DNA of 64,000 bases, from assembly GCF_000002425.4 (NCBI RefSeq), contig NC_037254.1, positions 19,693,418 through 19,757,417 of the forward strand, given 5' to 3'. How positions within the stretch are numbered: the stretch's first letter is position 1; each line of letters begins with the position of its first letter. The notes below the pieces were generated by a model. It searched no databases. It had not been told where the DNA came from and was given only the letters and a program-made list of their open reading frames with translations. This document shows positions 13,256 to 40,249 of this stretch, one piece after another. Source of the DNA: Physcomitrium patens (lineage: Eukaryota; Streptophyta; Bryopsida; Funariales; Funariaceae). The translations under genes were made by a program, and so were the position numbers.

Positions 13256-13530
13256 ACAATAAGATCCTAACAACTCTAATATAATTTTAAATAAATTCTA
13301 ATTAAATCTTAATAATATTAATCAAAGTTATTTAAATCCAAAAGAATTTTAAAAAAATATTAAAAAATCATTAAAAATTTATAATTTTTTTAAAGAAATA
13401 ATAAAAAAAAAAATCTTAAAGAAATTAAAATAAATCTCTAAAGAATATATTAAAAATAAAAAATTAAATAAATCTCAAAAAAATCCTAAATAAATCCTAA
13501 TCAAATATCAAAAATATGAATCAAAACAAG
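13256..13530. repeat. Degenerate AAATCCTAA-type array
   Basis: Irregular tandem-like motif around AAAT(C/T)(C/T)TAA(T/A). The same low-complexity pattern recurs at 34930-35340 and 42350-42770, and reverse-complemented near 44400-44720. Confidence 0.5.
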
Positions 13531-13539
13531 AAGAACTTA

Positions 13540-14034
13540 AAAACTTTCTTATGTAACTCATGAAGAATAAATATTCACTCTAAAAGTAATTTAGTATTAA
13601 GACAAGAGTAACTATTGCCAAAGACATGAAGTATATAGACTCTTGAAACTAGACTAAAAACAAGAAAGGCATTGACAAGAATAAAGAAGGCTTCACTCTT
13701 GCCTCCATGTATACTATCTAACTAGGAGCTTTGTGGTGATGTTCTATAAGACGTCTAATACATGTTCAAATTGCAAGACACATGTCTTAACTTGTAAGGC
13801 AAGTTTTCTATATGTGCTCTATACAATTAGCTTGTTTCAAAAGCTATTAATATGAATGATACATGGCTAACTTGTTGACCAAGTTTTTAACCTACAAACA
13901 TTTGTAAAGTCAAAGTTGTATCCAAAAAACTTCTAGGAAGTTTTTCTAGAAGATATCATCAAATTAATCTATTTTTATCTATTTCTATCTCATTATATAG
14001 ATAATTATTGGAATAAATATGTATGTGTGTGACA
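13540..14034 (-). repeat. Gypsy LTR (probable 3' LTR of the minus-strand element)
   Basis: On the minus strand it begins TGTCACACACATACAT at 14034. It matches the plus-strand LTR at 8788 and the split LTR at 21780-21987, 23250-23400 and 34815-34920. Orientation and position below the chromodomain fit the 3' LTR of the element whose pol lies at 16-20.3 kb. Confidence 0.6.
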
Positions 14035-18001: not shown

Positions 18002-18159
18002 GGCTTTAAAAGATGCTTTAGCTTCTTTATTCCATTCAAATTTTTCTTTAGAAGTTAGATATATAAAAAGAGGTGCAACTTAAAAAATGTTCTTGATGAA
18101 AATTTGATAATATTTGACAAAATTAAAAAAATATTACATGATTTTAATTGTTTTTGAAA

Positions 18160-18590
18160 TCTTCTAGTCTATAATAATTTGAATCTTCATCAGATCTATT
18201 ATAAAGCCTTTATTAGAAATAATATATCCTTGAAAGTCAACTTAAGTAGTATGGAATATATACTTTTTGATCTTGGCATATAATCTTGAATTTTTAAATT
18301 TTTATAATATATGATATATAAAGCTCATATTCTTTTGTGTTCTTAGAATAGATTAAAATATCATCTAAATAATAAATAATGAAATCATGAAGAAATTCAC
18401 AAAAAATTTCATTTATGTGATGTTAAAAAATAGCTGATACATTTATAAGTCCAAAAGGTATGATATTATCTTCAAAATATCCATACCTAGTTCAAAAAGG
18501 AGTCTTCTATTCATCTCTTTTTTTGATGCAGATCAGTGTTGTAGCAAGAATCTACTTTGAGTAGATGCACAATTGCTCTTTGTATTTAAG
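18160..18590 (-). pseudogene. Gypsy reverse transcriptase, C-terminal part
   Basis: Minus-strand translation contains the catalytic YLDD box (codons at about 18359-18370, in IIYYLDDILIYSK). Upstream lies TRYGYFEDNIIPFGLINV, matching the 'fRTrYGhyEf.vmPFGLtNA' block. The frame is interrupted by stops. The upstream part of the domain is displaced to 19990-20300 by an insertion. Confidence 0.75.
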
Positions 18591-19990
18591 TTGGATCCAA
18601 TATGCACAAAACCTTCTTAAATTCCCTTTTGAGTATTTACAAAACTATGTTTGTAATAAATCAACAAACTTGAAGTTTAAAAATTCATAACCCAAGATCT
18701 AGCCATTCAAATAAGTTTAAAATTTAAGAGTATAGAATTTATACTTTTGATCATTATCACACAAATTCTTAGCTGCACATTTTTTACTAATCATCTGATA
18801 TCACCAAATCCTTGGAAGGTACTTTTGAAAGTCAAAACCAAACTGGAAACTTGAAAATTTATATTCCAAGATCCAGCCAATCAAATAAGCTCAAAATTTG
18901 GAAATACAAAAGTTACATCTTTAATCATCATTATACAAATTTTTAGCTACAAATTTTTTGCTGATCATTTGATATCACCAAAATCGTAGTAGGTACCTTT
19001 AAAAGTCAAAACCCTAGATACATAAGAACAAATTTTACTATTTCTTCCAAGTCAAAGCTTCAATTTATATGAAATTTTAGATATAGATTCTTTATATTAC
19101 AAGTAATATGTACACAAAAAATGAGATTCAAATTCATCTTGAAGCTCAAGTTCTAGCTTAAACCAAAATCCTCTATTTCTCTAATTTCTTCAAAATCCTA
19201 GTATTAGTTTATTGGTTTTAACCAACCCTATCTTACTCATTCTAGATTCAATTCTATCAATCTTTAAATATGAAATTTTTAGCTTGAATTCTAGTTTTAA
19301 ACTTAGTTCTTTGATTTCTTGATAGTATCTTAAAACTCCTAATATACATAGAAAAGTGACAATAGATATCAAATTAGTAGCCTAAGTTTGAATAAACATA
19401 ATTCTCTCATCTGAGCTCTAAGTTTTGCATTTATTCTACCTAAATTCATGCCAAGAAGATCCTCTCTTTGAATACTTCTCTTTAATTTTCAAAAAAGTCC
19501 TCTTCTTTATTTTTGAGCTCACCAAAAAAGTTGGAGCTAAGGCCTTTAAAGTCAAAGTCAAAAACTAATAGTTTAAAGTTAAACAAATATCAAATCTAAT
19601 CCTCTAAGTTAATTCTATTAATAGAAGCTAACTAATACTATTCAAACTCCTATTCATCTTTAATAAAAACCTAAATACAACCTCAAAGTCAAGATTCTTC
19701 TCATATCTATAAATATAACTTTGAATCTACTAAAACCAAAGATTAGAAAAAAAAATAAAAGAAATAAAAGAAAGCTTTAAGGCTAAATGAAAGATAAAGT
19801 TAAGATTAAAGATAAAATAAAATTTAGCCAAAATTTCATAAAAAAAAAATAAAAAATAAGAAAACTTCTCCAAAATTATAGAAAAATTAATTTGATAAGA
19901 AATAAAAAGAACTTAATAAAAATTCAAAGAAAAGTAAGTCAAGTAAGATTTTCATACATGAATGTGTTTACATCATGACATCGGGTTATA
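18590..19990. mobile_element. 1.4-kb insertion within the reverse transcriptase, with a 170-bp tandem repeat
   Basis: Reverse transcriptase coding homology stops near 18590 and resumes near 19990, so this segment is foreign to the Gypsy frame. It contains two diverged tandem copies of about 170 bp (about 18667-18838 and 18846-19015; shared 'caagatc.agcca.tcaaat', 'tgatatcaccaaa' and 'aaaagtcaaaacc'). No coding capacity was recognised. Confidence 0.5.
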
Positions 19991-20300
19991 TATTCCTCAT
20001 AGATCTATTTTTGTATAGATCTTTGCTTAATTGAATTGATAAAAAATTCTTAAAATCAAAAAATAATGATTATCTATTCTTGATGGTAATCTTGTTAAGT
20101 CCTTGATAGTCTGTGCATATTTGTATCTTCACAAATAAGATAGGAGTTCTTATTAGAGATTTTAAATATTATATGAAGTTTTTAACAAAATTCTTGTCAA
20201 TATATTCCTTTAATGCAGCCAAATCATTTTGAGATAAGTTATAGATCAATCCAAATAGCAATTGAATTTCTTCCTAAAGATCAGTTGAACAATTGTAAGG
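19990..20300 (-). pseudogene. Gypsy reverse transcriptase, N-terminal part
   Basis: Minus-strand translation reads KIQICTDYQGLNKITIKNR, the 'r.CiDYR.LNkvTikNryPlP' block of Gypsy reverse transcriptase. It lies 1.4 kb from the rest of the domain. Confidence 0.7.
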
Positions 20301-21779
20301 TTGATGTTCAAAAAGAATATATACATTTTTCATGTCAAAAACATCCTCAAATTCTTAATACTAATTAGAAATATTACTTAACATCTTTCTACTATAAAAA
20401 ATAGACACAGTGTATATAGCAAAAGATGATCCTTCTTTTGCTATATGCATAAAAGCTCTTGTATCTACCAATAAGGATTTGGATATATTAAACTTATGTA
20501 TTTTTACTTGACTAAAAAAATTTTGAATTAAACTATAAGAGAAGTCAAGGTTACAAGAAATCCAATCTATTTGAAGGTTATATATTTTTAACTAAAATAA
20601 TCCTAAAATAATTAGTTAGAGAGAATTCTTATCATATTAAATGTTATTATATTTTCATGAACTTTAATTGCTACATCTAAAGAAACAATCTCATGAATAA
20701 TATCTCCAAAAAAAAACTAATGACCATCTTTGACTTTTACATGTATGGATTTAATTTTCATGACTAAAAATATTTCTTATTTTTTGATAAAGTCTTTATT
20801 TATAATAAACTAAGGTTCTTGAATCTAATAATGAAAAGACTTTGTGATTTTTAGGTCCTAAACATATATCTATTATAAAACAAGTTGAAGGATTTGAGGA
20901 GAGAATAGAACCTTTATTAAGTATTGTATATGATTCTAGCAGCATAATCTCTATTATAAGAAAAAAAACTTATTTTTTTGACACATTCTCCTCTTAGGAA
21001 ACCATGCTCCTTATTTTGTGATTGCATTGCTTCTTTGGATAATATTAAGAAGTATGTTTAGCTTTTCTATAATATAAGCACAAACCTCTTCAATGATATT
21101 GAGTCTTGTTTTGCTCCATGAGATATTTAAAATATATTCTATTAATTTGCATTGGTTCTTGCCTTAATGAATAAGTTTTTGAAAACTTAAGAACTGCCGT
21201 CATTGCTTGAGTTGTTCTTTTTCAACCAAATCTTTATTTTTGATAAATTTTAAATAGTCAATTATTACATGTAATGGCTTGAACAATAAATTATTTCAAA
21301 GAACCTAATTTTGGCATTACTAATAATAAATCTTTGATATTATTCTTTAATCCATATTTAAATTAATGTATAAGGACTTTATCATTCTAGTCTACATTAT
21401 AAGCAAGGTTTTGGAATTCAATAGCATATATGGTGTCTGATCGTGATTTTTATCATAAAGATAAAAATTTAGCTTTGATACTCTTTTTCAATCATATTCT
21501 TCAAATATAGATATAAACACTTTTAGGAATAAATTCAAATTATAAAAGAGTAATAAATACTTTTTTATCAAAGATACAAATCAAAAGAGAGCACTTTAAA
21601 AAAAAAATACGCCTATGAATCTAACTTGAATAAATCCTTTAGGATGTAGAAAAAGATGCAATCTTAAATAGAACTTTACTTTTTGTAAAAATCTTTAAAA
21701 TTTTAATCTTGTTCCATCAAACTTTTTGAGCATACTAATCGTTGCCTCCCTCATACTTGTAGAAATAAAACAAAGAGAA

Positions 21780-21987
21780 TCTTAAAATAGTCTTATGTAA
21801 CTCAAGAAGAATAAATATTTATTTTAAAAATAATTTAATATTAAGACTAAAATAGCTATTGTAAAAGATAAGAAGTATATAGATTCTTGAAATTAGATCA
21901 AGAACAAGAAAGGCATTAATAAGAATGAAAAGGCTTTACTTTTGCCTCCATATATACTATCTAATTACAAGCTATGTGGTGATGTTG
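21780..21987 (-). repeat. Gypsy LTR, first segment (split 5' LTR)
   Basis: Matches 13545-13745 in the same orientation ('tcttatgtaactcaagaaga', 'aagaaaggcatt', 'gcctccatatatactatcta', ending 'tgtggtgatgtt'). The match breaks at 21987 and resumes at about 23250. Confidence 0.65.
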
Positions 21988-23249
21988 TCATATTATAATT
22001 GTTTATAGTATGTAAAAATTAACTAAAATATATAATATATTTATAAGTATTAATGTATATTAGAATGATTAGTAGATTAATTTAAAGAGAGTTAATATAA
22101 AAGAAATTATTTTGAGATTTATCTATGTTGATTATAATATTTAAATTATATAATATTTAGATATTTAGTATTAAATTTAAAAAGAAGATTGGAGTTCAAA
22201 AATGAAGATTCAAACCTCTAAGAAACTTATTTGGAGGAAAAAAAGTAAGATATGGATGGATGAAGGCAAAAGATAAAGAACTTCATCATTGTTGCTTGAA
22301 GGCTTTATCCAATAGGCATTCAATAAGCTATTGTCAACCATGATAAGGATTTTAGTGACTTCAAAAAGAGCATTTGAGAATCTAAAGTAATAATTATAAG
22401 GCTTAGGATTTAGACTATAATTTGTCTACTTATTTTAGAAGATTTAGAGTTAGAGTGATGAAATTATAGATGTTTGAAATTAAGGTGTTTTTTAAGATAT
22501 ACTATTGATCTTTTGAAGTTACAAGGAGTTTTATGACATATTTTCGAAATTAAAGAGATAGAATTACAAGGATGATTTTATGATCTACATCTTTTTTAAA
22601 AGAATTTTTACATTTGGAATTTGTATGAAGGAGTTATAGAGCATTGAAGACATCATATGTAATTCAAAAGAAGTGAGAGAGTCGTTTTGTTGATAGTAAT
22701 GGTTGGAGCCATATCTTGAGTTTTTGGACGAATTTTTTACTCAAATTTTTTAAATATGTATGTTATTAGGTTGAAAAGCTATATATCAAGAATTTATGGT
22801 ATTTAAGTACTTAGTTTGTGAGATATAAAGAAAATTATACACAGGTATATGTAAATAAGGGTTTGAAGCTACTATTAAGATTTTGGCAATATCTCAAGTT
22901 TTATAATGAATTTATAATTGAAATTTGTTGTGATAGTTGTTAAAAGTACATCAATACTTCATGTAAAATTTTAGTTTGTTTGGATAGTCCAATTGTGAGA
23001 TATGAGCTGTTGAAGTTAGAAAAAATTTACCTTAAGTATATACAAGGTTTTATAATATTTTTATTATATTTTTGATGATCTTTGGTACTTAGGGCTTATT
23101 TATTGATATAATTGTCTTTACATGAATAATTTTATATACAAATTTGATATTTTTTTTTTAATCTTGAGACTTGATTCAATAATTAATAACAACCAAAAGT
23201 CCAGTGCTTTCTTGAGGCAAATTCTCTCTACTCCAATAATATTCTATAG
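21988..23249 (-). repeat. Solo-LTR-like repeat B, copy 1, inserted in the Gypsy LTR
   Basis: A 1.26-kb unit whose reverse complement is found in two pieces, 23405-24296 and 34445-34812. Its ends on the minus strand are near TGTTGG...(here TATTGG) and ...TATGACAACA, suggestive of an LTR with TG...CA ends. A 5-bp flank (atgtt on the left, atatt on the right) may be the target duplication. No coding was seen; the open stretch at 23122-23370 is not a gene. Confidence 0.6.
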
Positions 23250-23404
23250 AATCTTTGACATATGTTTCAATTTCAAAATACATGTTTTAATTTGCAAGGT
23301 AAATTTTCTATATATGTATCACATAATTAGCTTATTTTATAAGCTATCAACATATGTGGCATATGGCTAATTTATTGATCAAATTTCTAACCTACAAACA
23401 TGTT
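23250..23404 (-). repeat. Gypsy LTR, middle segment
   Basis: Continues the LTR broken at 21987: 'ctatagaatctttgacatat', 'aatttgcaaggtaaattttc', 'acctacaaacat' match 13748-13908. It is bounded on both sides by oppositely oriented copies of repeat B. Confidence 0.65.
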
Positions 23405-24296
23405 GTTGGGGTTGAAAGAATTTACCTTAAGAAAGTGCTAGGCTTCCACCTATCACTCATTACTCAATCAAGTCAAAAAATAGAAAAGCACAAAGTTTAT
23501 ATATAAAATTATTTCTTTAGGGACAATTATATGAATACATAAGTCTTAAGTATTAAAGATTATCCAAAACGTAAGAAAAATATTATAAAACCTTATATAT
23601 CCTTAAGATGAAAGCTTCTCAAATTTCAATAGCTCATATTTCACAAACTATCTAAACAAACTAAAATTTTATATAAAGTACTGATATACTTTTAACAACT
23701 ATCATAGCAAGTTTCAACTACAAATTTGTTCAAATCTAAAGATATTAACAAAATTCTAATAATAGCTTCAAATCCTTATTTACATACACATGTATGTAAT
23801 TTTCTTTATATTTCACAAATTAAATATTCAAATACTATAAAATTATGATATATAGCTATTTAACCTAATAAAACACACTTTTAAAAATTTTGAGCCCAAA
23901 TTTGTCTAAAAACTCAAGATATGGCTCCAACCATTACTATCAACAAAATGATTCACTTACTACCTTTGAATTACAACTACTATCTTCAATACTTTATACT
24001 TCCTTTAAATAAATTCTAAATACAAAAATTCTTTTACAAAAGATGTAGGTCTTAATATCACCCTTGTGGTTGCACCTCTCAATGTCCAAAAGCTATCGTA
24101 AAACTCTTTGTAGCTTCAAAAGTGCAACTATATGACTTAAAAAGATACCTTAACTTCAAATGGCTATAACTTCATCACACTAACTTCAAATCTTCTAAAA
24201 TTTATACACAAATTATAGTTTAAATTCTAAATCTTACAACTCTTACTTTTGATTCTCAAATTCTATATTTGAAGTTATTAAAATCCTTGTTATGGT
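23405..24296 (+). repeat. Solo-LTR-like repeat B, copy 2, left part
   Basis: Reverse complement of about 22340-23245 (for example 'gaatttaccttaagaaagtgc' less its last base against 'gcactttcttaaggtaaatt' patterns, and 'atggctccaaccattacta'). It ends abruptly at 'ccttgttatggta' (24296), where the viral block starts. The remainder of this copy lies at 34445-34812. Confidence 0.65.
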
Positions 24297-24336
24297 ATAA
24301 AAAAATAAGAGTTTTTTATATAAAAATAAGAGTTTA

Positions 24337-25851
24337 TCATATATAAACCTGGTCTATACTTACAGATGGTACACACTTGTTATTCTTACTCGCAAGAGTT
24401 ACATGTCTATAAACATGTATTGACCTTTCTTCAATCTTTAAAAGGTCATGTGATTGACTCCTTACTGCTCTTCTAATTGCTTGTACTATTGTTGACTTTT
24501 TCTAATGAGAGGTAACAATAAGAACTTGCGTTACATTAGTTAAGCTTACATTCTCTCCACTGATTCTACTACCAAGCAATATCTTAACATGTTCTCCATA
24601 CTTGTTCTTTGGGGATCTAAATCCATCCAATCTCTTCTTAGGATTAGAATAAGCAATTATATCTCCTGTGTACAATGTATATGGCAAACCTTTATTGATC
24701 TCGTCAATGCTTTTGCCCTCATATAGTTGGTATCCAAAGAGTTTAAATATACAACTTATCTTAATTAATCCAGTTCTTTTAACTTCCTCACAAAATACAA
24801 ATGCTAGCATATCTATGTTGTTTTCTATTATGTCTAGCATCTTTGAATACTTACAAGAGTATAAGTACAAGTTGTCTCTTTTTAGTTGTTGTTTAATTTC
24901 TTCATTGAGTGTATACTTTATTTTGTTATCTTGTTTGATCCTTACTATCTTTGCAAATACTTTAGCACCATATGTTCCATCCCAGAATGTCATCAAAGAG
25001 TAGTATATAGAGTTTCTGTATACACTATCATTGAGATTATTGATATCTATCTTCTTATATGCTTCAAGTTGATATCCTTTCATATTAGATGGAACAACTT
25101 TGATCAAACAACCTTCTAGAGTTATTCCTTCTTCTATTACTTTTGCCATATGTTGGTTATTGTTAAGATATGATATTCTACCCATTATATGTTTTTTAAA
25201 GCTATCTTTAGTAGGAAAGAATGATGTATCAAATTGATAATTAGTATCAAGTATCAAATTAAAAATAGATAAGATTTCTTTGGTTTTATCTATCATAAGA
25301 GTTGAGCTTAAAAGAAGTGTCTTACAGTTCCTAACAAGGTGAGATAATCTCCACATTTGACCATATACAATCTCTGCATCGAGATCTGATATAGAATGTT
25401 TCAAATTATGAATTTCATCCATTATCATTATCTTGTTATTAAAGCTCGATATTACTTGATTATCATCTAATCTCTTTAGCTTATTTGTAAAAGAGATATA
25501 CTTTTTTATTTCATAATCTTTTACTTCTCCACTTGGCCACTTACAAATCTGGTCCTTAAAATTATCAATAGATGTTCTAACTGTTATGAGTACGAGTGCT
25601 CTTCCTTTGTAAGACTTATGAGATTTAACAACTGCTGTAGATGTAAATGTCTTTCCTGATTCAACATTGTGAAATAGTAGTAGGTTATTATATGGTGTTT
25701 GAGGTGACATGAATCTCCTTACGAACTCCTGATGAGGATATAGTCTTGACCTGTTTATTTTTCTTGTTTCATAAAACTCCTTTTTTCTCCATAGATTGTC
25801 AAAAAAATTATTATTTAGTACACTAGGATATGATGGAATAAACTCTTCCAT
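24337..25851 (-). pseudogene. NCLDV superfamily 2 helicase, D6/D11-like
   Basis: A 449-codon open frame runs from ATG 25851 to a TAG at 24502-24504. The same frame then continues 55 codons to a TGA at 24337, so the gene is nearly full length with one nonsense change. Residues about 58-70 hold the Walker A region (LLFHNVESGKT), the Walker B box is MIMDEIHNL, motif III is LLLSSTLMIDK, and the motif V region is ILLGSRISGENVSL. The motif VI arginine segment lies beyond the stop. The family acts as viral early-transcription ATPase or transcript-release factor (poxvirus D6/D11 lineage). The stop falls where a Trp is usual, consistent with TGG to TAG. The first Walker A glycine is not conserved. Confidence 0.8.
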
Positions 25852-25902
25852 AGTATTGTTATAAATGAATTAGCTAACAATGGTTCTTGTCAGAACATTT
25901 AA

Positions 25903-27902
25903 TTGTACCCTGTAAGAATATACATCATGGATTTTTTAACAGAGTTTATAAAGTCCAAGAAAGACTTAAGTTCTAAATCTCCTGAGGGATCCAAGTATGA
26001 GATTGAGATCAAATTGAAAGATATAACAGAGAAGGAATTCATGGCACTCTCAAAATTCAATAATATTATCACCACAGAAAAGATATTATATTCAATAAAA
26101 GGTAGTAGTACTGTTACAGTCAGAGAAATAAGCTTTGACTTCTTTATCAAGGAAAAGATATCATCAAAGACAATTCCCAAATTCAATGTAGAGGTTGTAC
26201 TATTTCTTGAGCGAAAGTATCATAAGAAAGAAGGAATGGCACTAACAATTAAAAGAAACAAAGAAAGAAGTACAATAAGCTATAACAAGTTCAAGTTCGA
26301 CTCAACAAGGATCATATCCAAAGCACATACTCATTACAAAATTGAACTTGAAGTCTTAGATGATGATTATGAGCCCAAGCTTTTGGAACTTGTGCTAGAA
26401 CATATCAAACCTTCTACGGTTCTACAAATATTCAAGCTAATCAACAAGCTTGTATTTAGTCTTGATCTTTGAAGTTACAAGTTTCTAAAGCCTGTTGATA
26501 TAACGGTAAGAGAGTTTACAAGGAACTATTCATCAGGAGGATCTGTATCTCTAAAGCTTGATAGTACAAGTTCATTCCTTGTATGCTATGAAGCAACTGT
26601 ATATGCCATATCAAGTAAAAGAAAAGAGATAGTTATCGATTCAAGTATTCGTGATTGTAGCTTACTTTTTCTTTTTGATACAAAAGTTGTTGATGGTATA
26701 TATTACGCATTTGATATCGTTATATTGGATGGAGTAGTGGTTGCTAATAAGACATTAATCGAGAGGATAAGAATGATACCTCAAACATGCTTAGCAATCA
26801 ACAATGCTATTCAGAAGAGATTGGTAGTTGCAAAGAGATATTTTATGTTTAAGACATTCTTTGCATTCTCTAGATAGCATCAGATACTAAAAAAGCAAAT
26901 CCAAGAGAGCAAGTATGATACTCTAATATATACACACTCTCAATCTTATCTTGATCATGTTATGAGATGGAAACATCAAAAGACTGTTGATCTATTATAT
27001 CAAAAAAAAACTTTAATGGCATATTATAAGAAAGAAAATATAGATTCTGGACTTGAGATATCACAAGATAGTACAAAACCAAAAGAAAATACTATTTCAG
27101 AGTTTGTTATAAATTCAAATGAAACTGTAACATTACTAAGAGAAAGAGAAGATAAGACGTTCCAAATTCTATTACAGTAGTAGAAAGAATTAAAAAGATA
27201 ACAAGAGAAGAAAAGAATATGTTTAATGTCTTTAAAGGATTAACATTGTCCATAATGAGATCCTATCACAATGAAGTTAAAAGATTTCTTTTAAAGAAGA
27301 GAACTAGTCATTTGTTAGACGTTGGATCAAGATTTCGAAGAGATATTATAAAGTAGGATCATTATAAGAGCATTACATGTGTAGATCCATCTCATAACAA
27401 TATCAAAGACCTTAAGAGAGGACTTGGTACTAACAAAAAATTAAGAGTGATACAAACAAGAATAGAACACTTAAGAGGATTTGAAAAGTCCATAACAACA
27501 TTATCATGCTTCTTTTATATTACTCTTATTGACATTGACAAGCTTATTAGAGTTGTTCAAAGGGTATTCTTTGACAAGCATAAATGCATATTCTTATGTA
27601 TTGTTATATCCAAGAAGTACATAATGGAATTCTTTGAAACAAGAAAAATAAAAGAATACACATGTAAAGCATATTCTATTAAATTACAAAGTAATAATAA
27701 GATACATATACATATTCTCAATACTATTGTGATAAATCAAACAGAAGATTTAATAGACGTAGATAAGTTGATCAAACAGTTTACTAGTATAGGATTCAAA
27801 TTAAAAATAAAAGATAGACTTAACAAGAACAAGTTTATATTTTCTAATGAGTATTTACTATCTTACATGTATGAGTCTCTAGTGATGATAAGAACAAAAT
27901 AA
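25903..27902 (+). pseudogene. Viral mRNA capping enzyme (triphosphatase, guanylyltransferase, N7-methyltransferase)
   Basis: Three capping activities follow each other, as in poxvirus D1 and mimivirus-type enzymes. The triphosphatase (25903-26470) has tunnel-fold Glu pairs (YEIEIKL near residue 33 and KIELEVLDD near residue 148). In the guanylyltransferase (about 26480-27030) the nucleotidyl-lysine motif reads SLKLDS, then FDTKVVDGIYYAFD and a motif V-like RWKHQKTVD. In the methyltransferase (about 27200-27902) motif I reads LLDVGS followed by RFRR in place of glycines. It is broken by TGA at 26470, TAG at 26875, a frameshift near 27150-27170 and TAG near 27352. The Gly-to-Ser and Gly-to-Arg changes fit G-to-A transitions. 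Confidence 0.75.
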
Positions 27903-27992
27903 AATTGACCCAATAGTGAACTAGTTGTAATATAATAGATTTTTTTTATCTATTAGTACCACTGATTTTTTTATACTTACAGATGAAATATA

Positions 27993-30437
27993 TTATCTAT
28001 GAATTTCAATATAGTATAGATAATCTATTTCAAGATTATAAAGCAATAGTAGATGAGGTGGACATATTTTAAACCCTTGCAGCTTAAATTTTTCTTTGGT
28101 CTTAACAAACACAAAATCAAGTTTATCACTAGGCTTAGCTTCAATACCTAGGTCTTTCAATCTATTGCTATATACTAGCAAAGGTGTACTAGCACTAGAA
28201 TATCCTTTTCCTAACATCTTTGTGATTATTAAGCTTTCTAAGAAAATAAGACCTCTTACTAAAGACAATAGCTCAGCTCTAATAAACTCCATTACATGTT
28301 CATATGGTGTTGAATTCATAATCATCTCTACTAATGACAAATACATGTCCTTCAAAAATATGCAACTATCTCTTCTCGACACAATAACTCTCTTGTATAT
28401 CATCTTATGTTCACCAGCTATAAGTCTTATGTATCTCTTCTTTGTGATTAAAAGAAACGTTTCAAACACCATTTCAAACTCAAGCTTTATAGATGTAGGA
28501 AATTCTCTTGATACTTCATTAGATATTTGTACAGCTAATACTTTAAAAGATTCATAATCCTGAGCAGTATCAGATGTAAATATACATGAATCGATATTGC
28601 CATATACCAACTGTACTAGATATCAAGATGATATTATGCTTGATGCATGTATAAGCATTCATCTACCTATTGTTGTTGTGGATTCTACACCTTTTATAAA
28701 GTATAAGTATGAAGAGTTACGAGTTCCATATGAACCATATACAAAATTAGCTGATAACTTTAGAGCAAGTTGTCTCTTTTCGAGAACTACCTTTTCTATT
28801 CCTATAATTGTACTAGATTGTATCTTAACTTTCTTTCTTTTTAATATTAATGCCTTCAGTAGAGATGGTACCAATCTTAAAGGCTCTTTAGCAAATATAT
28901 AAGACTTATTGTCATATACTTGTTTAATAAAGTAAGGTTGATTGAAATACTTCTTAATAAATGTTGAGTAGCATATATTATGACTTATTATAACAGAAGG
29001 ATACAAACTTAAAAAGTCAAGTAAAAAACACCATTTGTAAAGCCCAAGAATAGGATTTGATATTATAGCTCCTTCGTATTCAAATTTTTCAAGTAGAAAT
29101 TCTGTTCTGTCAAATACAACACCCTTATTATAGTACTCTTTGTATAGCTGATATTTCACTCTTATCTGCTGGCCTCTGGTGTAGAGATCTCTAATTCTTG
29201 TTCTTATAACAGTCAACATCTCTGTCACACTAATCCATATATTCATATTATTAAATAATACAATGGTTAGTAATGAATCTATTATGTAGTATCTTACAAT
29301 AGTTTCAATAGACTTCTTATCACCTTTCTTATACAAATTGAATACTTCTTTGTATGGTAAGTCTACTTTCTTATTTTCAATAAACTTCTCTAACACAGAA
29401 TACAAGCTATAGTTTTGCAGCTTATACTCCTTTGTAACATATTGGTAGATGTCTATAACAGTATGTCCTAGTAGATCGATAACTATATAGTCACTAAAGC
29501 TATAAGCTAAGCTGTTCCAATTAATATATATTCTTTCAGTACCAATACCTTGTATTTTGGAGCTTGAAGGTAAGTTAATAAGCTTTCTTCGTAGTCTAAT
29601 ATCAATGTATTTAAAATCAAACATGAATATATTATATCCTATTATAACATCCAGATTTATTTCTTTGATGAGAAAGAAATATGTTTCTATTAGATCCCTC
29701 TCTATTAAGAATACTCTTGCATCTGTCTCATCAACATCTATATTACATTGTCTAATATATAATATATACTTCTTAGATGTATGAGGCATAAAATACCTTT
29801 GAGATACTACAGATATCATGAACAACTTATCTTTTTCTATATAAGGATCTAGCATAACACTTGCATTAGATGAATATACTTCTATATCCATACACACTAT
29901 TAACGGCTTTGGAACATCTATTTGATCTATAATTCATATTGAACTCGAGCTACACGTATATTCTAGATTTGTAGAGCAGAATCGTATGTCATAATCTACA
30001 TCTGCACATAATGCCTTCTTCCATCCATAATAACTTATGTTTGTAGTAGTAATAAATATTTCTTTTATCTTCATATTACCTTCATAAACTTTTATATCCA
30101 TCTTCTTCATTAGATTAGAGAAATGGTTAAGTGTGCTTCTCTTATAGAAGTAATACTTAATAAATTTCTTGTCACCTTCAAGGTACGATCTTAGTAGTCT
30201 TTTAGTACATATTGTGGTCTTGGCAATATTCTTACAACCAACTAGCTCAGATATCTTGTTCATTCTCTCACATACTTTTATTCCCATAGCAGATATAAGT
30301 ACATAGCACTACAAAAGAAAATCATGTACTCTAATAGTTACGGACTCTTCAGTTATAAGATTTCCAAATCCATATAGTACAATTCTCTCATCATCTGCTC
30401 CAACTCTCCAATCGTACATCATACATGATACTTCCAT
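27993..30437 (-). pseudogene. NCLDV family B DNA polymerase
   Basis: The start is at 30437 (MEVSCM, then YDWRVG), and one reading frame is kept for 815 codons to 27993. It is interrupted only by a few stop codons, among them TGA near 29934, 28659 and 28626. The exonuclease motifs are present: DIEVYS (Exo I), NIFMFDFKY (Exo II) and YYIIDSLL (Exo III). Polymerase motif A is LDFLSLYPSVI and motif B is KLSANFVYGSYG. Motif C reads YGNIDS instead of YGDTDS, losing a catalytic Asp. The frame is short for an NCLDV PolB (usually over 900 residues) but holds the core domains. The polymerase would replicate the viral genome; here it is inactive. Confidence 0.88.
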
Positions 30438-30489
30438 TGTCCACAAAAAGATTCCAGTGCTATGTTGACACAATGTTGATGCTTGACTA

Positions 30490-32605
30490 GTACCACTCTC
30501 TTATAATTCAATTACCAATACCAATCTTTACTTGTTTATCATCTGTAGCACGTATCATACTAATCATGTTGTTCCTTCTTCTAGTGAATTTATTAGAAGA
30601 TACTACTAAAAGAAGTATTGTTGAACCTTCATAACATCTTCTTAACTTATTGTATGTTCCTTGGATAACTTTAAGAACACCACCACTAAACAACAAAGGA
30701 TACCTAAATGAGTAATAATCCACAAACTCTGTAGCTGTAGAAAAACGTCTCTCTAATTATCCTAAGATCAAAGAATATTTCACCTCTAATAATTCTAATG
30801 TTAATTACATTCCACCACTTACACATAAGTTATAAATCGTACACAAAGTAGGCTCTAAGTCTTTGAGCATGTACCAGAGCAGATTGTGATATCTCATCTG
30901 CTTCTACTCATTTTACATCTAATGGTCTCCAAAGACATTGAATCCATCTGCTTTTAGTTAATACAAATATGCATTTTTTATCTTTATTTATCTTTTGCTT
31001 TGTGTATTGCTTAGGTTTTAATGCATCCTTACAGATAGTTATTTGCATCTTGAATTGCTTCAATGCATCATTCCAATGACCTTTTACTTACTCGCATTGA
31101 GGATATGGAGAAATATTTCTACAGCACAAAAAAAATGATAGATTGATCATACTTATATTCTCAAATATATGATCTTTTAGTGTACGGTATGGACATTCTT
31201 ATACTTATATCATCAAATACATCAAGGACGTATATATTTATTGAAAAGATGTGTTCTAATACTCTATAATAAAGTGTTGGATCAAAAAATATATCTCTAT
31301 CTCAAGCATTGAGAAGTATTTCTTCCTCTGTCAAATACCACAGCTCGTAAAGACATATATGAGGACGAAAGCTTAGGCTCTTCCTTGGAATATAATATGG
31401 CATATAGTATAGTATAGAAGACTTATTTCTTTTGATACCTATCCTTACTAGATCCGTAGAACACATTATCTCCTGAAGCTCTTTTGGAGTCTTATCAACT
31501 ACACCATTTTTTAAGAGATGCAATGGCTTAAATTGCATTATCTTCTTATGATTTCTCTTTGCATCAAATATGTCATGCATATATTTATAATAGTTAGACT
31601 TTGGTCTCTTAGGATGATCTGTAGTATAACAACAGAGAAGGAACTCGAATATATCTTTATTAGGAAATGTGTTCTTTTCAAGTCTTGGAAATAATCCTAC
31701 ATCGTAAGTATATATTCATGAGTATGGACCATCCTTGGGATATCTCATAGTTGATCTTCCTTCAGACTTATACTTCTCCTCTTCTAATTCTGTAATTATT
31801 ATTGGTTTATTGGAATATTCTCTTGGATATCCAGATACAAACAACTCTGGAATTTCCTCTTTTAAAGTAAATGTCCACGTATGATGTTTAGATATCTTTT
31901 CTTCTTCAAATATAAAATTTTATAGCTTGTTAAATTCATCTTTTACTTCATTGTAGACCTTAAGTAAGAATAAGATCTGATCTATAATGTCATCCATATG
32001 CTCCTCATGCTTGACATTTCATACTGTGATGGTTTTGTTTTCTCCTCTTTTGAATGTTACTATTCCAAGCTTAGCATATAGAGAATACTTGACCTTTATA
32101 GATATTGGGATAGTCTTTTCTCTTAATAAAAAGATTTCTCATAATCTAGGCTCGTTCATTACAACATCACATAGTAGCTCTAAATCTGGCTTTGTTCTTG
32201 TTATGTTAGCAAGCAATTCTATGTTTGTGACTTCAACATCTTGTTGTATATCAAATAGTAGTACTAATCATACTAAAAAGTTCAACAATAGAAACAACAT
32301 ATGATGATACATGTCTCATCTTCATTATACCTCAGCTAAAGTCAAAGTATGCTTTTAAAGGTATTTTATTATTATCATATTTAAGAATTGGAATTATAAA
32401 CGTAATAAGAAGTACATTGTTACTTTTTAATATGTTATCGACTTCTATAGTAGGATGAAATTGTTTGTACCATTGATAGTCACCAATATATCATTCAACA
32501 AGAGGAACATCTTCGGACACACATATAGTATCAAAAAGTGTGTTTCCATCTGTGTTGCTAATGCGCTAGACTAAGGTTACTTCCCTTATCATATAGGAAT
32601 CCATG
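30490..32605 (-). pseudogene. Possible viral early transcription factor large subunit (VETF-L/A7-like) or other NCLDV core gene
   Basis: A continuous trail of coding sequence in broken frames: FLLCCYTTDHPKRPKS and YYKYMHDIF near 31580-31650, the open stretch 31302-31580 with STDLVRIGIKRNKSSIL, then FDPTLYYRVLEHIFSINIYV near 31250, and 30508-30723 (YPLLFSGGVLKVIQGTYNKL). The total of roughly 700 codons, the double-Cys segment followed by a 'K..SKyykY' region and the 'R.Gi.r..SS' block remind me of A7-like VETF large subunits, but I cannot confirm this. Several stops and at least one frameshift (near 32260) are present. Confidence 0.35.
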
Positions 32606-32681
32606 TCTCTTGATAGACATAAAAAAATAAAACTAGTGCAAAAAATATCTTTCAATATCAATATTTTTTACTTTTTTATAT

Positions 32682-33205
32682 TAATATCCTATAATAAACT
32701 TCGTTGCAATAATCTCTTTCTATTCTTATTGCATCACCTTTTCTAAATCCATACCACTTACATATTCAATTTCCAGCATATATCTTTGGCAAGCTATCAT
32801 GAGATATCCCCTTTTCTTCCATTTCTTGTAGTTCTGAACTTGAAGAAATACAGTGCTTTAGAACAAGTACATTATGTGTAGGATTGAACATAAGCTCCTC
32901 TTTGATGAACATCGTTATACCATACATAGATATATCACCTTCAAATATAGAAGCATCAAGAGTGTTTGATGGCATTATTATTATGGTAGCAAACTCTATG
33001 ATGTCCTCTTGTATAGATTTATAATATTCAAGCATAAAGTTTGATATATCTTTCTTTGTGAGAACAGTTGTATTTGCTCCAAAGGGATTCTTATCTATGA
33101 AGTTTCTTGCTATTAGTACCACAAGATCATTCTCTCGTCCTGTATATGGATCCATCCTTTCATCAGATTCAACGGTACTATCACTAACTATATATCCTCT
33201 ATCTC
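32682..33205 (-). pseudogene. Viral RNA polymerase subunit RPB5
   Basis: The open stretch 33155-32766 has the RPB5 layout: an N-terminal segment (here from RGYIV upstream of the first ATG), then FATIIIMPS, ITMFIKEELMFNP, and the assembly domain start THNVLVLKH. A TGA at 32766 interrupts it. The same frame continues as WYGFRKGDAIRI and ends near 32682, matching the RPB5/RpoH C-terminal 'r.yg...GDvi.I.R' motif. About 170 codons is normal for viral RPB5. It indicates the virus carried its own transcription machinery. The last few codons may include a one-base shift. Confidence 0.75.
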
Positions 33206-33235
33206 ATATTATTTTTTTTTATGATTGAAATCATG

Positions 33236-33607
33236 TTATTTAGATAATATAAATCTAGAATATTTAAGGATGTTCTTTTTGATTGTAGTCCTATGATAAA
33301 ACTTAGAACCACATATGTTTGGATCAGTATCAACAATGTCACTAATAACATCATTACAAAGCATAGAAAATCGTGTGTCTATTCTTTCTCCACACTTTAC
33401 TAATACAACAACTGCAGCAATAAGAAGCATTATGTTCATATTACAAACTTCAATACCACATAGTATCCTTTCAATAGTCCTTGCCATCTCTGAACCAATA
33501 TCGAAGTGCCTTATAGAGAATGCCAACACATCCGATGAAATATTATAATTTCATTATCCATTTCTCTCTTCAAGATAGTTACTATCTCATCCAGTTCATC
33601 TGCCATG
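33236..33607 (-). pseudogene. Unrecognised viral ORF
   Basis: Begins MADELDEIVTILKREMDNE at about 33607, shifts frame near 33530, and continues as 98 codons (33529-33236) with a hydrophobic stretch MNIMLLIAAVVVLVKCGE. It starts back to back with the TFIIS-like gene, the two start codons overlapping. I do not recognise the family. About 125 residues, possibly one membrane-associated or buried helix. Confidence 0.4.
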
Positions 33608-33930
33608 GAAACAATGAACCCCTTCCATCTAGAAGGTAGTGACAAGAACATGATTAAGTGGTATGAATTTAATGTTGAATGTATGATCAATAGAGGCATT
33701 AAAGTATCAAGTATCAAACGTTACGAGGACATCAATAACACCATCTTCTTCAATATAGATTCGAAGAAATCAACAATTCTTGTAAAAGAAGGTGTAGAGC
33801 ATTGTCTTAAATGTAAAAGCAAAAAGATAATATCTATTAATGTTTAGAAGAGATCAGCTAATGAAGGAATGCCTACAGTGTTTGAATGCTCCAAATATAA
33901 TATTAAGTGGCAAATATTAAAAAAAAAATT
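33605..33930 (+). pseudogene. Viral transcription elongation factor TFIIS-like
   Basis: An 80-codon open frame ends at a TAG (33845-33847). The frame continues as RSANEGMPTVFECSK. This is the TFIIS Zn-ribbon: first Cys pair as HCLKCKSKK, then the RSA(D)EGM hairpin (the D is N) that enters the polymerase active site, then Cys, with the final Cys replaced by Tyr (CSKY). The stop sits where Gln is usual (CAG to TAG). N-terminal part about 60 residues, short like other NCLDV TFIIS proteins. It would rescue stalled viral RNA polymerase. Confidence 0.72.
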
Positions 33931-33949
33931 ACATATTATTGTTGTCCAA

Positions 33950-34443
33950 ATTATCTCTTCCATAATAAAATTGTACAATGTCTATACCGTCTCTTACAGT
34001 GCCATTGTATTGTGTTGTTACATCTTACATAGACTTTGACATACATCTTTGTATATATCCAGCATCAAAAGTATTCACACGAGTATTAACTAGTCTTTTT
34101 CTACCCCTTGACAATAGAAGAAGTATTTGATAGGATTAAGTCCTTGTGAATATGAATTGTTAACAAATCCTTGTCCTTGTAATAAACTATCGTATGGACT
34201 GCACCATGCTAAAGCTCTATTACCTGGTAATACTCATGTTGGTATTTTTCCTCTTATCCATTGTTGACCTACTAGTGAAGATATTTGTCCTAGATTAACA
34301 AAGTTTTCCTTAGATCTACTCTTTATCATTGTAAAGAGTAAGTTATTTTTGTCGATAGATTCTACTACCAATCGTTGACTTATATTTCTAAAATTATTAA
34401 GAATGACATCTATGATAGCCTCATGAATATATGAAACTCTCAT
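33950..34443 (-). pseudogene. Viral RNA polymerase largest subunit (RPB1), internal fragment
   Basis: Open stretch 34443-34234 contains VVESIDKNNLLFTMIKSRSK, then NLGQISSLVGQQ and GKIPT. After a stop the frame goes on with GFVNNSYSQGLNPIKYFFYC. These correspond to the RPB1 segment before the bridge helix ('s.d.nl.qi...vGQQ...G.rip' and 'GFv.nSf..GL.p.Effffha'). Only about 160 codons remain. The fragment is cut at the right edge of the viral block and fades near 33950 into stop-rich sequence. Confidence 0.75.
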
Positions 34444-34444
34444 A

Positions 34445-34812
34445 TAGGTTACCTCATTGATAGCCTCCTAAGAGCCTATTAGGCATGGCTTTTGATCAAT
34501 GGAGATGAAGAACTTTACTTTTTGCCTTCATCTATCCATATCTTTCTTTTATTCCTCCAAATAAGTTTTTTAGAGGTTTGAATCTTCATCTTTGAACTCC
34601 AATATTCTTCTTAAATTTTATACTAAATATCTAAATCCGATGTAATTTAAAAAATGTAATCAAAATAGATAAATCTCAAAATAAATTTTCTTATATTAAC
34701 TCTCTTAAATTAATCTATTAACTACTCTAATACATATCAATACTTGTAAATATATTATATATTTTAGTTAATTTTTACATACTTTAAACAATTATAGTAT
34801 AATAACTTCTAA
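34445..34812 (+). repeat. Solo-LTR-like repeat B, copy 2, right part
   Basis: Reverse complement of about 21988-22335 (for example 'tttttgccttcatctatcca' and 'gaggtttgaatcttcatctt'). Together with 23405-24296 it makes one copy without overlap, showing the viral block lies inside it. Confidence 0.65.
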
Positions 34813-34920
34813 ACTTAAATCCACATCTAGGAAGCTTTTTTAGAAGATATTATGAAATTAATCTACTTTCAGTTATTTCTACCTAATTATACAAGTAATT
34901 ATTGGAATAAACATGTATAT
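34813..34920 (-). repeat. Gypsy LTR, last segment
   Basis: 'tctaggaagcttttttagaa' and 'attattggaataaacatgta' match 13930-14025. It carries the outer (5') end of the split LTR, with the last bases of TGTCACAC missing. Confidence 0.6.
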
Positions 34921-34929
34921 CCTTGATAC

Positions 34930-36170
34930 CAAATCTTAACTAAATATTAATCAAATCTTAAATTTTAAATCATATCTTAATCAAATTTTAATCAAATCCT
35001 AATTCCTAAATCAAACCCTAATTAAATTCTAAATCTTAAATCAAATCCCATTCAAATCTTTAAACCTAAATGTTAAAATAAATCTTAATTAAATCTCAAA
35101 ATAAATTCTAATTAAATCTTAAATCATAAATCAAATCATAATCAAAACTTTAAATTCTAAACTATGAAAAAAATCTTAATTGAACTCTAATAAAATTTTA
35201 ATTAAAATTTTAAATCTTAAATCTTAAACCAAATTAGAATGAAATCTTATTTGAATCTTAAATCTTTAATAAACTCTTAACTAATTCTATAATAGATTAT
35301 AATCTTAATAACTAATAATTTAATTATAAATTTTAACTCAAAATTTTTATACTTATTAATTATGAAGATGACAACGAGCACAAAAAATGTAAAGAAGATT
35401 GAACTTATTAAATACAAGATATTGTGTTTGAATTCCAATAAATTTTAAATAAATTGTTAGATTAAGCTAAAACTCATGACATAGATTAAAAACAACATCA
35501 AATACACAATTCCAAAATTTTACTTATATATCATTAATAAATCTTAAATAATTCTTAAAAGGATAAGTTCTTTATAATTTCCAAAATCCAAAGTAATTCT
35601 AAAACAACTTTAACTTTGCAAAGCCTTTACAAAATCAATACAAATTCAAATCACTCAAAATCAATGTCCAAAAAAGCTTTCATAAGTCAGCTATCAAATC
35701 CCACTCTTCAATCAACTTAAGTACTTTAAAATTGCCATAGGTAGACAATTTTGTGTGTTGGAGTATGATTTTGACCTTATTTATAACTAGTCCTTTCTAA
35801 GTATCAATTCTTGATTACTTAAATTAATTTTTTCTATAAATACTCTCAATTTATTTTTAAAGATATCTATACTAATTTTTTATCTATTTTAATTTATCTC
35901 ATTTATGACTCTCCAAAATAAATAGAAGTCTTTTTCACAAAAATGCAGTATTAGCACTTATTAATTTTTACTACCTCCTTGTCTATTATTTATATTTTTA
36001 CAATAATTTCCTAAAATATATTCATTTAAACTCCTTTATAATATAATCTTTCTTTTGCTCTTTTATCTAATGGCCATGATCTACATATTAAAATATAACA
36101 TGATCTGTAACATGACAATGGAACCATGACCTATGTACTGAAATGTCGCTAATCGACATCTACACTCTGT
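34930..36170. repeat. Degenerate AAATC(C/T)TAA array and AT-rich debris
   Basis: 34930-35340 is an irregular array around 'aaatcctaatcaaatcttaa', similar to 13256-13530 and 42350-42770. A few units read 'aaaccctaa' but no true telomere run exists. The remaining bases to 36170 are AT-rich with no ORF that I can support. Confidence 0.5.
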
Positions 36171-37079: not shown

Positions 37080-38774
37080 CCTGATCTGGTTTGTGATCTG
37101 CAAATGAATATGTATGAACCTATGGATTAGTGCATTCTCCTTTGCATAAAAATCCACAAAGTGCATCAAATATGTAGATGTTGACTTCAACTCAAGCAAA
37201 TAATGGTGTAACCGAAATTTTACAAATATAATGAACTTGATCAAGTTGTCAGCTTGAAACGTACCTGGAGTTAGGCAGCTGCTAACGACAACCAAATACA
37301 AGAACACTGGTTCGCAGGCATCTGCTGGAGCCTACTGGATCCTCATCATATTGTTGTTTACAAGGAAAAACCCTTGCCCCACTCCTGCAATGACCAAGTA
37401 TGAATGTAGCCAGGTGTTAGTCAGATCAATAAGGCAAAATTTGCACTAGATTTGTCATTAGATTGCTTCCGAAGCTGTATATAATTGTAAGAGACTTGCC
37501 TGCGCGAGAAACAGTTCTCTGCTTCGCCGTCGTCCAGCATCACTAGAGGGTAAATGAGCTCTGGTTTGGAGCATTTCATCGATTCATCCACAGATATTAC
37601 AGAGAAGTATCTTGCCATGTCACTTCAATCGTAAGCCGGACGCTGGTGTCATTGTTCACCTCATAACCACCTACGACAATATTGCCTCGACCATCCAGGT
37701 CTGGTTCGAATGCCATGTCCAATGGCAGGTGCAAGGCCCACAACGACTCCCAGTCAATTCAGCAATCTCAACCTTCACTTTGCACTTCTTGTCGCGTCTA
37801 GTCTTCATGGAGAGACTCTTCAGTTTGGAGGCCAACGGGTCCTCTCTCAATATCTCAACGCCAGGCTGCCAAATGAAACAACCGAGTCTATATCTCCACT
37901 GAAGTCTTAAAATCCACAATGCAATGTATGATCTATCTTGCTGCAAATTCTACATTAACTTCACTTGTCTGTCAGCAATCTTTGATACCTAAGTGACAAA
38001 GCAATTCACTGGACTTCAAACGATCAACAACATTTAGTAAATTTGTGTTAGTCCTATATTCCAGATTTGATGATGCAAAAGATAATACACAAAGTCAGAT
38101 CAAAACATGACGCTTAACCTTTTCTCACTTACCGGATACGTTCGGTCATAAACAACCACATTCTTAGAACTGGCATGATCAACCAAGTCTGGAGGCAACA
38201 GGATACAAATGCTTTGCACTATCTCCTTTCTGTAAGCCACCTCCGTCGTTGAATGCTTGCCAAACACAATGCCATTCACAATGCCATTCACCTTTCGCAA
38301 CGCTCTCACAGCCTCACACCATTTTGCCACATCAATTCGTTTGTCCTCGCTCTCATATTCTTTCCATGTAGACATCCACCGCTCCTTGATAGCCTGATCA
38401 TCAAGATCGTGAACTGATGACTTGAAGAACAGTGGGAGCAAGTTCAACGCTTGGTTTCCTGCTTGTTCAGCAGCATGACACTCCGACAACTCTATCATTG
38501 GCCACTTAGAAATTAAGTAATCTTGAGACAACACTATAACAGCAACATGACAATGTTGGGCTGCCTTTAAAATCAGAGGCGCAAATTCCTTCCCTTTAGG
38601 CAAACTGTTGAGTCTTCCATCAAAGAATGGAGAATAACCTTGAGCTTCAAGATCCACACAGAGTTGCTCTACAAAATCCTTCTGCCCTCTGCTATGACTT
38701 AAAAATATGTCATGCTTGCTGAGACCAAGCTTGATACTTGGGCTGCAAACTATGCAAAACGGTGAAAACCCCAC
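37080..38774 (-). CDS. TIR-domain protein, C-terminal exons uncertain
   Basis: Exon 1 (38774-38133, 214 codons) ends in phase 0 at a consensus donor CCG|GTAAGT. It holds a TIR domain from about residue 20 (KHDIFLSHSRG) to about 160. The putative NADase glutamate is E95 (SKWPMIELSE, the 'SkWCl.El' position of plant TIRs). TIR domains signal in immunity by cleaving NAD+ or by self-association. Exon 2 starts at 37940 after TTTGCAG and reads in phase (QDRSYIALWILRLQWRY). Coding-like sequence follows in another frame (WALHLPLDMAFEPDLDG, near 37720) and near 37618-37500 and 37400-37280. No NB-ARC or LRR motif is visible, so this is a TIR-plus-unknown protein or a decaying gene. Confidence 0.6.
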
Positions 38775-40249
38775 AGCTTAGGGTGCAAAACCCAACAACA
38801 TAGTAGGTGAAGATTAAATCTCTGAAAGAATATTGCATGCTACACTAGTAAAATTGGATATTGCATCCAGTGTTGTCTCGAGAGTGCAATTCAACAGGGG
38901 TGTCACATTAACCCATCCTCTCAATTCCTCAAATTCCCCAAACTTGGGGACTGCTCATAATCCACCTACAGAGGTAGATCGTGAGTTGTTTCCGACTTAC
39001 AGGAATGGGCTATTCTGACCAATGGTATTCCTGCTCTGCTGCACTTTGAAATGCCACACGTAGGGGGTGTCACACTCGGACTTTCATTGAGTTTCATAAA
39101 AAAAGTCGAGGAATGCTCATTATCTATCTGCCCCTAATTCTATATGCACATTCTGTATCACAATTTACGGTCCCTGCGCAAGAGGTTCACCAGGCATGAG
39201 AGAGAGTTTATCTCGAGCCAGCCATGCCCTAAGCATACAGATGAACTCTACAACTCCTCGTCAGATGTGCTCGGGTTGGTATGATTGGAAACCACTGCCA
39301 ATTATAGGTATGCATCGGTAGTTTCTCCACAAAGGCTTGAAACTGCCCAAGTGAAACTAGTAATTCGACCTAAAACTTCTCGCACTTGACTTGTCCATCC
39401 GCATATATAAAACTCCCAACCGACTACTACATACCCTTGAATTCACAAATGTTTCAATACCCGTCTTTCTCAATTCAGATATCAAATTCAACTACAGAGC
39501 GGTTTGACGCACCCACAAGATGTGCACAGGACCACGACAGCCTCAAATAAACGGCCTCAAACCATAGTACCCAGCATTCTTCCAAAATCAATCCACGCTA
39601 GCCAATATCCTGTGTCAAGTACTTCAATTTCAGACTGTCGTGATCCTGAGCGACATTTTAGTTAGGTAACTTAACGCAGCACGTCTGAAACATTCGAAGA
39701 GTGAAGTATTGACTACAAAAATTGACTCTCTTTCCCGCCTGGACTGTTCAAAAGAGACACGAGAGAGGTATACCTAGTCTACCAACTGTGACGCAGTTGT
39801 ACATGAGGATATGGGTTCCTGCTCCGCTCGCTAATCGCTCACAATTCAGGAGCGCAGTCAGGTGCTGGTCGAGACCTATGTTGTGTGTACAAGATGTGTT
39901 GTTGGCGAGGACTTTTCACCGATTTACAAAGGGAGATGGTACCATGTTGTGCTACAGTGGGTTTTTGAGTTGCAATTTTGGGATTGATGGCCGCTGCGCT
40001 TTAGAGGCTTCTAAGTATTCTGGAGCCCGCAGAGATTGCTTTTTGGTAATCTCTTGGTTACATTTAATTTTGTAAGGTTCAAAGTTGAACAGCTGCAGCT
40101 GAGGTGCAGGGTGCGAGCTGAATCAGATTCTGCGGTGTCTTTGACGAATACATTTTGGGTGTGCAAATTGAGACTTGCCACCTTGCAGACGATTGGAGTG
40201 CCCAAGGCAGTTTTTATCAAGTTTGGAGTTTTTGAGTCCTCTGCTTCAG
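38775..40249. promoter_or_regulatory. Divergent intergenic region between the TIR and CHAT genes
   Basis: About 1.4 kb of balanced composition separates the TIR start (minus) from the first supported CHAT exon (plus). Short open stretches at 38833-39018 and 39722-40075 show no domain. It probably contains promoters, 5' UTR and any missing 5' exons of the CHAT gene. No specific element is identified. Confidence 0.4.

Follow-up and report, generated by a model that had tools for sequence, protein, structure and literature searches.

Gene content of the viral segment

The window analyzed here is a 64,000-bp stretch of the moss Physcomitrium patens (assembly GCF_000002425.4, contig NC_037254.1, positions 19,693,418 to 19,757,417 of the forward strand), in which an earlier note made from the sequence alone had described a block of giant-virus genes. 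We found that positions 24297-34459 form a giant-virus segment of 10,163 bp that lies within one arm of a foldback repeat in a P. patens chromosome, with bounds set by alignment of the two halves of the right arm that it interrupts. The left edge given earlier (24297) was exact, but the right edge falls at 34459 rather than 34444. From the left, the gene order is helicase (-), capping enzyme (+), family-B DNA polymerase (PolB, -), DUF5757 protein (-), RPB5 (-), a TFIIS-like motif (+) and RPB1 (-):

24352..25851, minus strand: 5' part of an NPH-I/D11-like SNF2-family helicase, interrupted by a single in-frame stop (PDB, UniRef relatives, tblastn)
25927..27902, plus strand: likely three-part capping enzyme (triphosphatase, guanylyltransferase and methyltransferase regions), with three stops and a frame change (tblastn, weak single-piece profile hits)
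27993..30437, minus strand: PolB, exonuclease and polymerase domains, in a single frame that four in-frame stops interrupt within 28005-30437 (Pfam, PDB, relatives, tblastn, tree)
31302..31919, minus strand: DUF5757 protein in two pieces (Pfam 2e-9 and 1.1e-7), the same frame continuing, unassigned and with stops, to ~32225
32766..33203, minus strand: RPB5-like RNA polymerase subunit piece (PDB RPB5 at 1.5e-5; Pfam Rpb5_C at 0.044, below its cut-off)
33797..33928, plus strand: TFIIS-like zinc-ribbon motif with one in-frame stop (by eye)
33929..34459, minus strand: RPB1 piece interrupted by a stop and a frame change, which starts in domain 4, ends shortly beyond the bridge-helix region and lacks its 5' part at the right edge (tblastn, Pfam, PDB)

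When the window was searched by tblastn with 14 proteins, eight from a free viral contig (IMG/VR IMGVR_UViG_3300046454_001203, 17,169 bp, our L001/L002; L001 below) and six database relatives, 10 of the 14 matched at E 0.05, all within the block, whereas none of the same 14 queries matched when reversed as a control. NCBIfam returned general polymerase and helicase models only, and Rfam and tRNA scans of the window gave no hits. Pfam, PDB and tblastn matches bore out the helicase, PolB, RPB5 and RPB1 of the earlier gene list, so that PolB, the NPH-I-like helicase, RPB1 and RPB5, core genes of nucleocytoplasmic large DNA viruses (NCLDVs), stand side by side in the block, with the capping enzyme less firmly among them. 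The TFIIS call held in part: a TFIIS-like zinc-ribbon motif was recognized by eye at 33797..33928, but Pfam TFIIS gave no hit on this piece. The genes are indeed closely packed on both strands without introns, their interruptions being stops and frame changes. Five genes are interrupted in this way (helicase, capping enzyme, PolB, DUF5757 and RPB1), with five stops over 31302-32220 in the reading of DUF5757, a family of unknown function; the RPB5 piece is open throughout.

The viral origin claimed in the earlier note is supported by the PolB piece, which scored 451 bits against the metagenomic protein P0001 (52% identity) compared to 140 bits against Pol delta, its best PDB hit, and by a helicase-capping neighborhood common to the block and L001. 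The chromosomal location likewise stands: foldback sequence lies on both sides of the block, an empty-site copy is present within the repeat itself, and non-viral genes, such as one encoding WD40 repeats, occur elsewhere in the window. Taken together, these data confirmed at the level of sequence that the block consists of decayed NCLDV genes. Since the helicase ends near residue 476 of its L001 counterpart and RPB1 homology starts at domain 4, both edges of the block cut genes. The block is a genome fragment rather than a whole provirus, and a working viral enzyme is not predicted from any of its large genes.

The helicase and capping enzyme genes

The 455-aa helicase piece (24502-25869, minus strand) has vaccinia-type NPH-I as a PDB match (1.4e-8) and aligned with nine P. 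patens proteins at 75-100% identity. One of these, the UniRef protein P0017, is 100% identical over 95% of the piece's length, which agrees with P. patens as the source of the window; its model starts with residues of an open reading frame (ORF) antisense to the capping gene, a start that is an annotation artefact. Eight more P. patens helicase models (P0018-P0025) are 75-82% identical to the window piece, with P0023 and P0025 being 99.5% identical to each other over 211 residues, and some of the P. patens helicase and PolB models may overlap one locus. The window helicase, like several other P. patens copies, has a Walker A motif that departs from the one in its free viral relatives. Relative to the 874-aa L001 helicase, the moss copy lacks ~400 codons of the 3' part at the left edge of the block, a part through which the P. 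patens models P0021 and P0025 continue. A predicted fold of the helicase was poor (mean pLDDT 50.6) and was not used.

Directly at the left viral edge, positions 24297-24347 hold 2.4 copies of a 21-base unit, which is perhaps filler made during joining.

The capping enzyme is the weakest-supported of the large genes, and the earlier call stands with reservations. Taken singly, its pieces reached capping or methyltransferase families in Pfam at E 0.018-0.071 only, and two pieces scored better with an unrelated family: DUF2624 at 0.047 and Methyltransf_9 at 0.0033, the latter on the guanylyltransferase piece. In its favor, the L001 capping relative aligned over 26335-27893 at 8e-19 (tblastn). 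This relative itself had no Pfam hit at 0.01 and reached a cap methyltransferase in the PDB at E 0.096 only. As a sum of weak hits, the identification as a capping enzyme is likely. The helicase and capping genes are divergent and are separated by 75 bp in the window and by 54 bp in L001.

PolB and the affinity of the virus

Two PolB pieces matched Pfam PF00136 and PF03104 at 9e-22 to 4e-32; these were the sole PolB families found, with no match to the protein-primed family PF03175 at E 0.1. Four P. patens PolB models (P0003, P0004, P0005 and P0007) are 50-74% identical to the window, and P0003, P0004 and P0005 differ from one another by 26-33%, which indicates, on the sequences compared, that there are several related viral copies in this moss. 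For a quick PolB tree of 60 rows, we combined 58 of 147 fetched proteins (P0002 and P0007 were left out) with L001 and the window piece; the tree contains no named virus family. The window piece grouped at SH-aLRT 99 with three P. patens copies, whose column occupancy is only 41-62%, and at 96 with metagenomic P0001. The long-branched P0006 joined the moss group at 95, a placement that we do not trust.

A structure model of the PolB piece (mean pLDDT 85.9) was searched against the BFVD fold library. Among the best 50 of 355 matches, Pithovirus LCPAC104 ranked first (30% identity) and LCPAC302 second, these Pithovirus proteins being at 27-30% identity only. We infer a virus of a Pimascovirales or Pithovirus-like lineage that encoded an RNA polymerase and a capping enzyme of its own. 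The moss fragment contains no capsid or packaging gene to compare with Pithovirus-like viruses; capsid, ATPase and late-transcription genes all lie beyond what was captured.

L001 was found by a viral-contig scan with a helicase alignment; a scan with the L001 helicase alone matched only its own contig, and no relatives came up when viral contigs were scanned with P0001, P0010 or the PolB piece of the window, each taken singly. Like the block, L001 carries PolB, a capping relative, a helicase and RPB1; its helicase and capping genes are likewise divergent, and its RPB1 and the moss piece end at almost the same point. It differs in having ~26-33% amino-acid identity to the window (tblastn) and in having PolB on the other strand relative to the capping gene. 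A profile search with PolB (639 proteins, best 120 listed) included Mortierella, Linnemannia, Podila and Bifiguratus records at 50-61% to the L001 PolB (L001 120-2525); these fungus-named relatives are the proteins P0033, P0053, P0060 and P0138. In the tree, the L001 PolB grouped with the records named for these four genera, apart from the moss group, and the records may be fungal insertions or contaminants.

Between its helicase and RPB1 genes, L001 also carries a 1138-aa ORF with a B-lectin domain (9523-12939).

An RPB1 gene that ends behind the bridge helix

The RPB1 piece matched Pfam domain 4 at 6.5e-11 and PDB entry 3h0g_A at 2.3e-4, and four longer viral RPB1 genes matched the window at 8e-7 to 2e-16. 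Homology ends at 33968 (tblastn), with ~12 more codons discernible by eye to 33932, where the piece adjoins the opposite-strand TFIIS-like motif. The L001 RPB1 ORF (13392-15281) has 629 residues, its end corresponding to residue ~860 in a yeast-type RPB1; the window RPB1 ends close to there.

A scan of viral contigs with the L001 RPB1 gave 15 loci, from which ten others (L004-L013) were compared and L014-L017 left out. RPB1 runs on by at least 590 residues in six of the ten: L004 (open at the contig end), L007 and L008 (which look near-identical), L009, L011 and L013. L005 RPB1 stops 162 residues on and is hence also short, which weakens the argument that the trait is confined to L001 and the moss remnant. 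L006, L010 and L012 are uninformative, since they reach a contig end after a further 188, 30 and 35 residues; the L012 match also ends early, at L001 residue 493. The N-terminal parts of the L004, L007, L009 and L011 proteins match both the window and L001, and their C-terminal halves match one another at 1e-20 or better; the same C-terminal halves had no credible match in the window or the L001 contig (best E 0.25 and 0.58).

A two-gene RPB1 would be the simple reading of this pattern, which comprises two cases, one of them decayed, with the C-terminal half found in neither the window nor the L001 contig. The archaeal RPB1-type subunit is split at much such a place. A literature search on RPB1 splitting in giant viruses or pithoviruses found no title on such a split. 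It is conceivable, if rather doubtful, that the moss virus and L001 represent a giant-virus lineage with a two-gene RPB1 split behind the bridge helix, that this one group may span mosses and Mucoromycota/Mortierellomycota partners, and that hairpin-prone host repeats trap its DNA.

The insertion site

The viral segment interrupts a repeat whose parts, and a second copy of whose family, were delimited as follows:

13523..14024, plus strand: second copy of the repeat family, in which both flanks of the foldback and its loop region lie close to one another and viral DNA is absent (self-comparison)
21981..23271, plus strand: intact left arm, the empty-site copy, with the insertion point between 22331 and 22337 (alignment, self-match)
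23272..23373, no strand: foldback loop, as left by local alignment
23374..24296, minus strand: right arm, inner part (alignment)
34460..34809, minus strand: right arm, outer part, beyond the viral segment (alignment)

When the two right-arm flanks were joined and aligned to the left arm (21981-23271), 1028 of 1270 aligned bases were identical (80.9%, 24 gap positions uncounted), and the alignment scored 744 compared to 35.5-59.5 for ten shuffles. In self-comparison, 22337-24296 formed one palindrome (76.7%), and 21981-22287 matched 34504-34809 inverted. Since the match runs continuously along the arms, the repeat is a foldback with ~1.3-kb arms and a ~100-base loop in which the viral segment splits the right arm only. 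At the junction, five bases of the mirror arm (22332-22336) have no counterpart and are repeated at neither edge; instead of the target-site duplication that a DNA transposon would leave, the edges of the viral block thus show five missing bases. The copy at 13523-14024 is 83% identical to 21767-21986, 74% to 23239-23406 and 84% to 34823-34918.

Just past the right foldback flank, 34930-35223 holds degenerate arrays of a TAAATC-type unit with a telomere-like look, and a 174-base unit is present in two tandem copies (78% identity) at 18665-19013.

Cytosine-context depletion and the order of events

The observed-to-expected ratios for CpG and CHG were 0.30 and 0.62 in the viral block, 0.16 and 0.39 in the wider AT-rich flank (8000-21980), and 0.15 and 0.13 in the foldback at 21981-24296, the last a coarse estimate from only 5 CpG and 4 CHG sites. 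By comparison, they were 0.87 and 1.02 in L001 and 0.91 and 1.05 around the WD40 gene (47-51 kb), and 300 shuffles of the block gave minima of 0.85 (CpG) and 0.76 (CHG). That the block is less depleted than the repeat fits the expectation for a virus that arrived later and then decayed under methylation, and the ratios are consistent with a repeat older than the viral insert, both having decayed by deamination of methylated cytosines. PMC12344493 and PMC12210455 describe methylated giant-virus regions in P. patens, and PMC9405923 reports small interfering RNA (siRNA) from some P. patens giant-virus loci. The depletion observed here is compatible with silencing of the locus by methylation or small RNA.

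Between the two foldback arms, we counted 157 transitions and 85 transversions (Kimura two-parameter distance, K2P, 0.224). Dating in years was dropped, because this distance bounds the insertion from above only if the foldback is older and because methylated DNA mutates faster.

Origin of the block

We consider it very probable that the block is a giant-virus fragment in one repeat arm, likely captured by end-joining break repair and probably decayed since then under cytosine methylation. End joining typically leaves blunt joints, small losses and no duplication. For such a capture, a cell from which spores or gametes derive would have contained viral DNA, and a double-strand break in the hairpin-prone repeat would have been mended with it, leaving joints with five bases lost and no duplication, a mechanism proposed from this one site; the locus would then have been silenced and its methylated cytosines lost by deamination. 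The earlier note proposed germ-line infection by a virus that possessed an RNA polymerase and capping system of its own. The genes agree with the polymerase and, less firmly, with the capping enzyme; germ-line infection would be a further inferential step, and the block is only a gene-cut fragment.

Several points weigh against parts of this interpretation. End joining is proposed from one site and a mirror arm with 19% divergence, and a deletion after the insertion could therefore account for the five bases that are absent. The assignment of the repeat to moss rather than to viral non-coding DNA is drawn from the second copy, the composition and the lack of viral matches. Regarding the virus, kinship to Pithovirus derives from structure-library ranking and published statements: Marseillevirus, Heterosigma akashiwo virus and Emiliania huxleyi virus polymerases rank close behind Pithovirus among the best 50 of 355 matches. 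In the PolB tree, the program flagged the composition of the window piece as unlike the alignment.

Among other origins, it is unlikely that a transposon took up the viral DNA, with the inverted repeats at 21981-22331 and 34460-34809 as its terminal repeats. These outer arms do face each other around the block at 84% identity (295/350), but they are continuous with inner arms of 0.9 kb, all belonging to a single foldback in which the right arm alone is interrupted; moreover, no target-site duplication was seen by eye at the outer ends, and Pfam scans of 20 window ORFs, part of those present, found no transposase. Because the palindrome touches the first viral base (24297) and some large DNA viruses have inverted terminal repeats, the AT-rich region and foldback might instead be viral, the foldback having entered along with the genes as a genome end or concatemer junction. 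We regard this as very unlikely since, unlike at a genome end, the right arm resumes beyond the viral genes, the foldback flanks recur at 13.5 kb, and the foldback is more CpG- and CHG-depleted than the viral genes.

Misassembly, or the joining of free viral DNA to a moss contig, is highly implausible given the pseudogene decay, the CpG and CHG depletion, the 12 other P. patens models of the same helicase (8) and PolB (4), some perhaps overlapping, and the prior publication of such loci for this species. Endogenous killer-type cytoplasmic linear plasmids would offer a similar gene list (PolB, capping enzyme, helicase and polymerase subunits) together with inverted repeats. However, the PolB families matched at E 0.1 do not include the protein-primed one, and proteins of giant-virus or eukaryote type are matched by the pieces of NPH-I-like helicase, RPB5 and RPB1, which makes such a plasmid barely credible as the source.

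Other features of the window

A TIR-domain ORF (38100-38777, minus strand) and a CHAT-domain ORF (40172-40741, plus strand) lie on opposite strands within 2.7 kb and are possibly remnants of defense-type genes. The WD40 repeats are encoded by an SPA/COP1-like frame of 655 aa (48670-50637, plus strand) in CpG-normal DNA. A 1084-aa open frame at 2331-5585 (plus strand) had a weak AT-hook match only.

Relation to known loci and significance

Endogenous NCLDV loci in P. patens were reportedly described by Maumus in 2014 and by Lang in 2018. As the earlier note had stated, such loci are already in print: PMC9405923 and PMC5294986 report giant-virus loci of this class in P. patens, and PMC5294986 lists the species as Pithoviridae-like. 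Of three NCLDV genomes assembled from Sphagnum peat, PMC12142844 reports two to be related to the P. patens remnants and places them in Pimascovirales; they are extant viral populations, unlike the moss remnant. PMC10640383 concerns an asfarvirus-like insertion in Rhizophagus. The block comes from the same species as the published P. patens loci, and other models of its helicase (75-82%) and PolB (50-74%) occur in this species. Endogenous giant-virus loci in this moss have thus been known since 2014 and linked to Pithoviridae or Pimascovirales in 2017 and 2025, and the kind is not new; what is added here is the anatomy of an insertion site.

The locus provides a worked case of giant-virus DNA entering a land plant. 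Because the mirror arm serves as an empty site without a second genome, one sequence is enough to tell where the edges lie, that nothing was duplicated, and that the repeat came first, the virus later and decay afterwards. If foldbacks are insertion spots elsewhere, and if the lineage touches fungi, both would be testable in public moss and fungal genomes.

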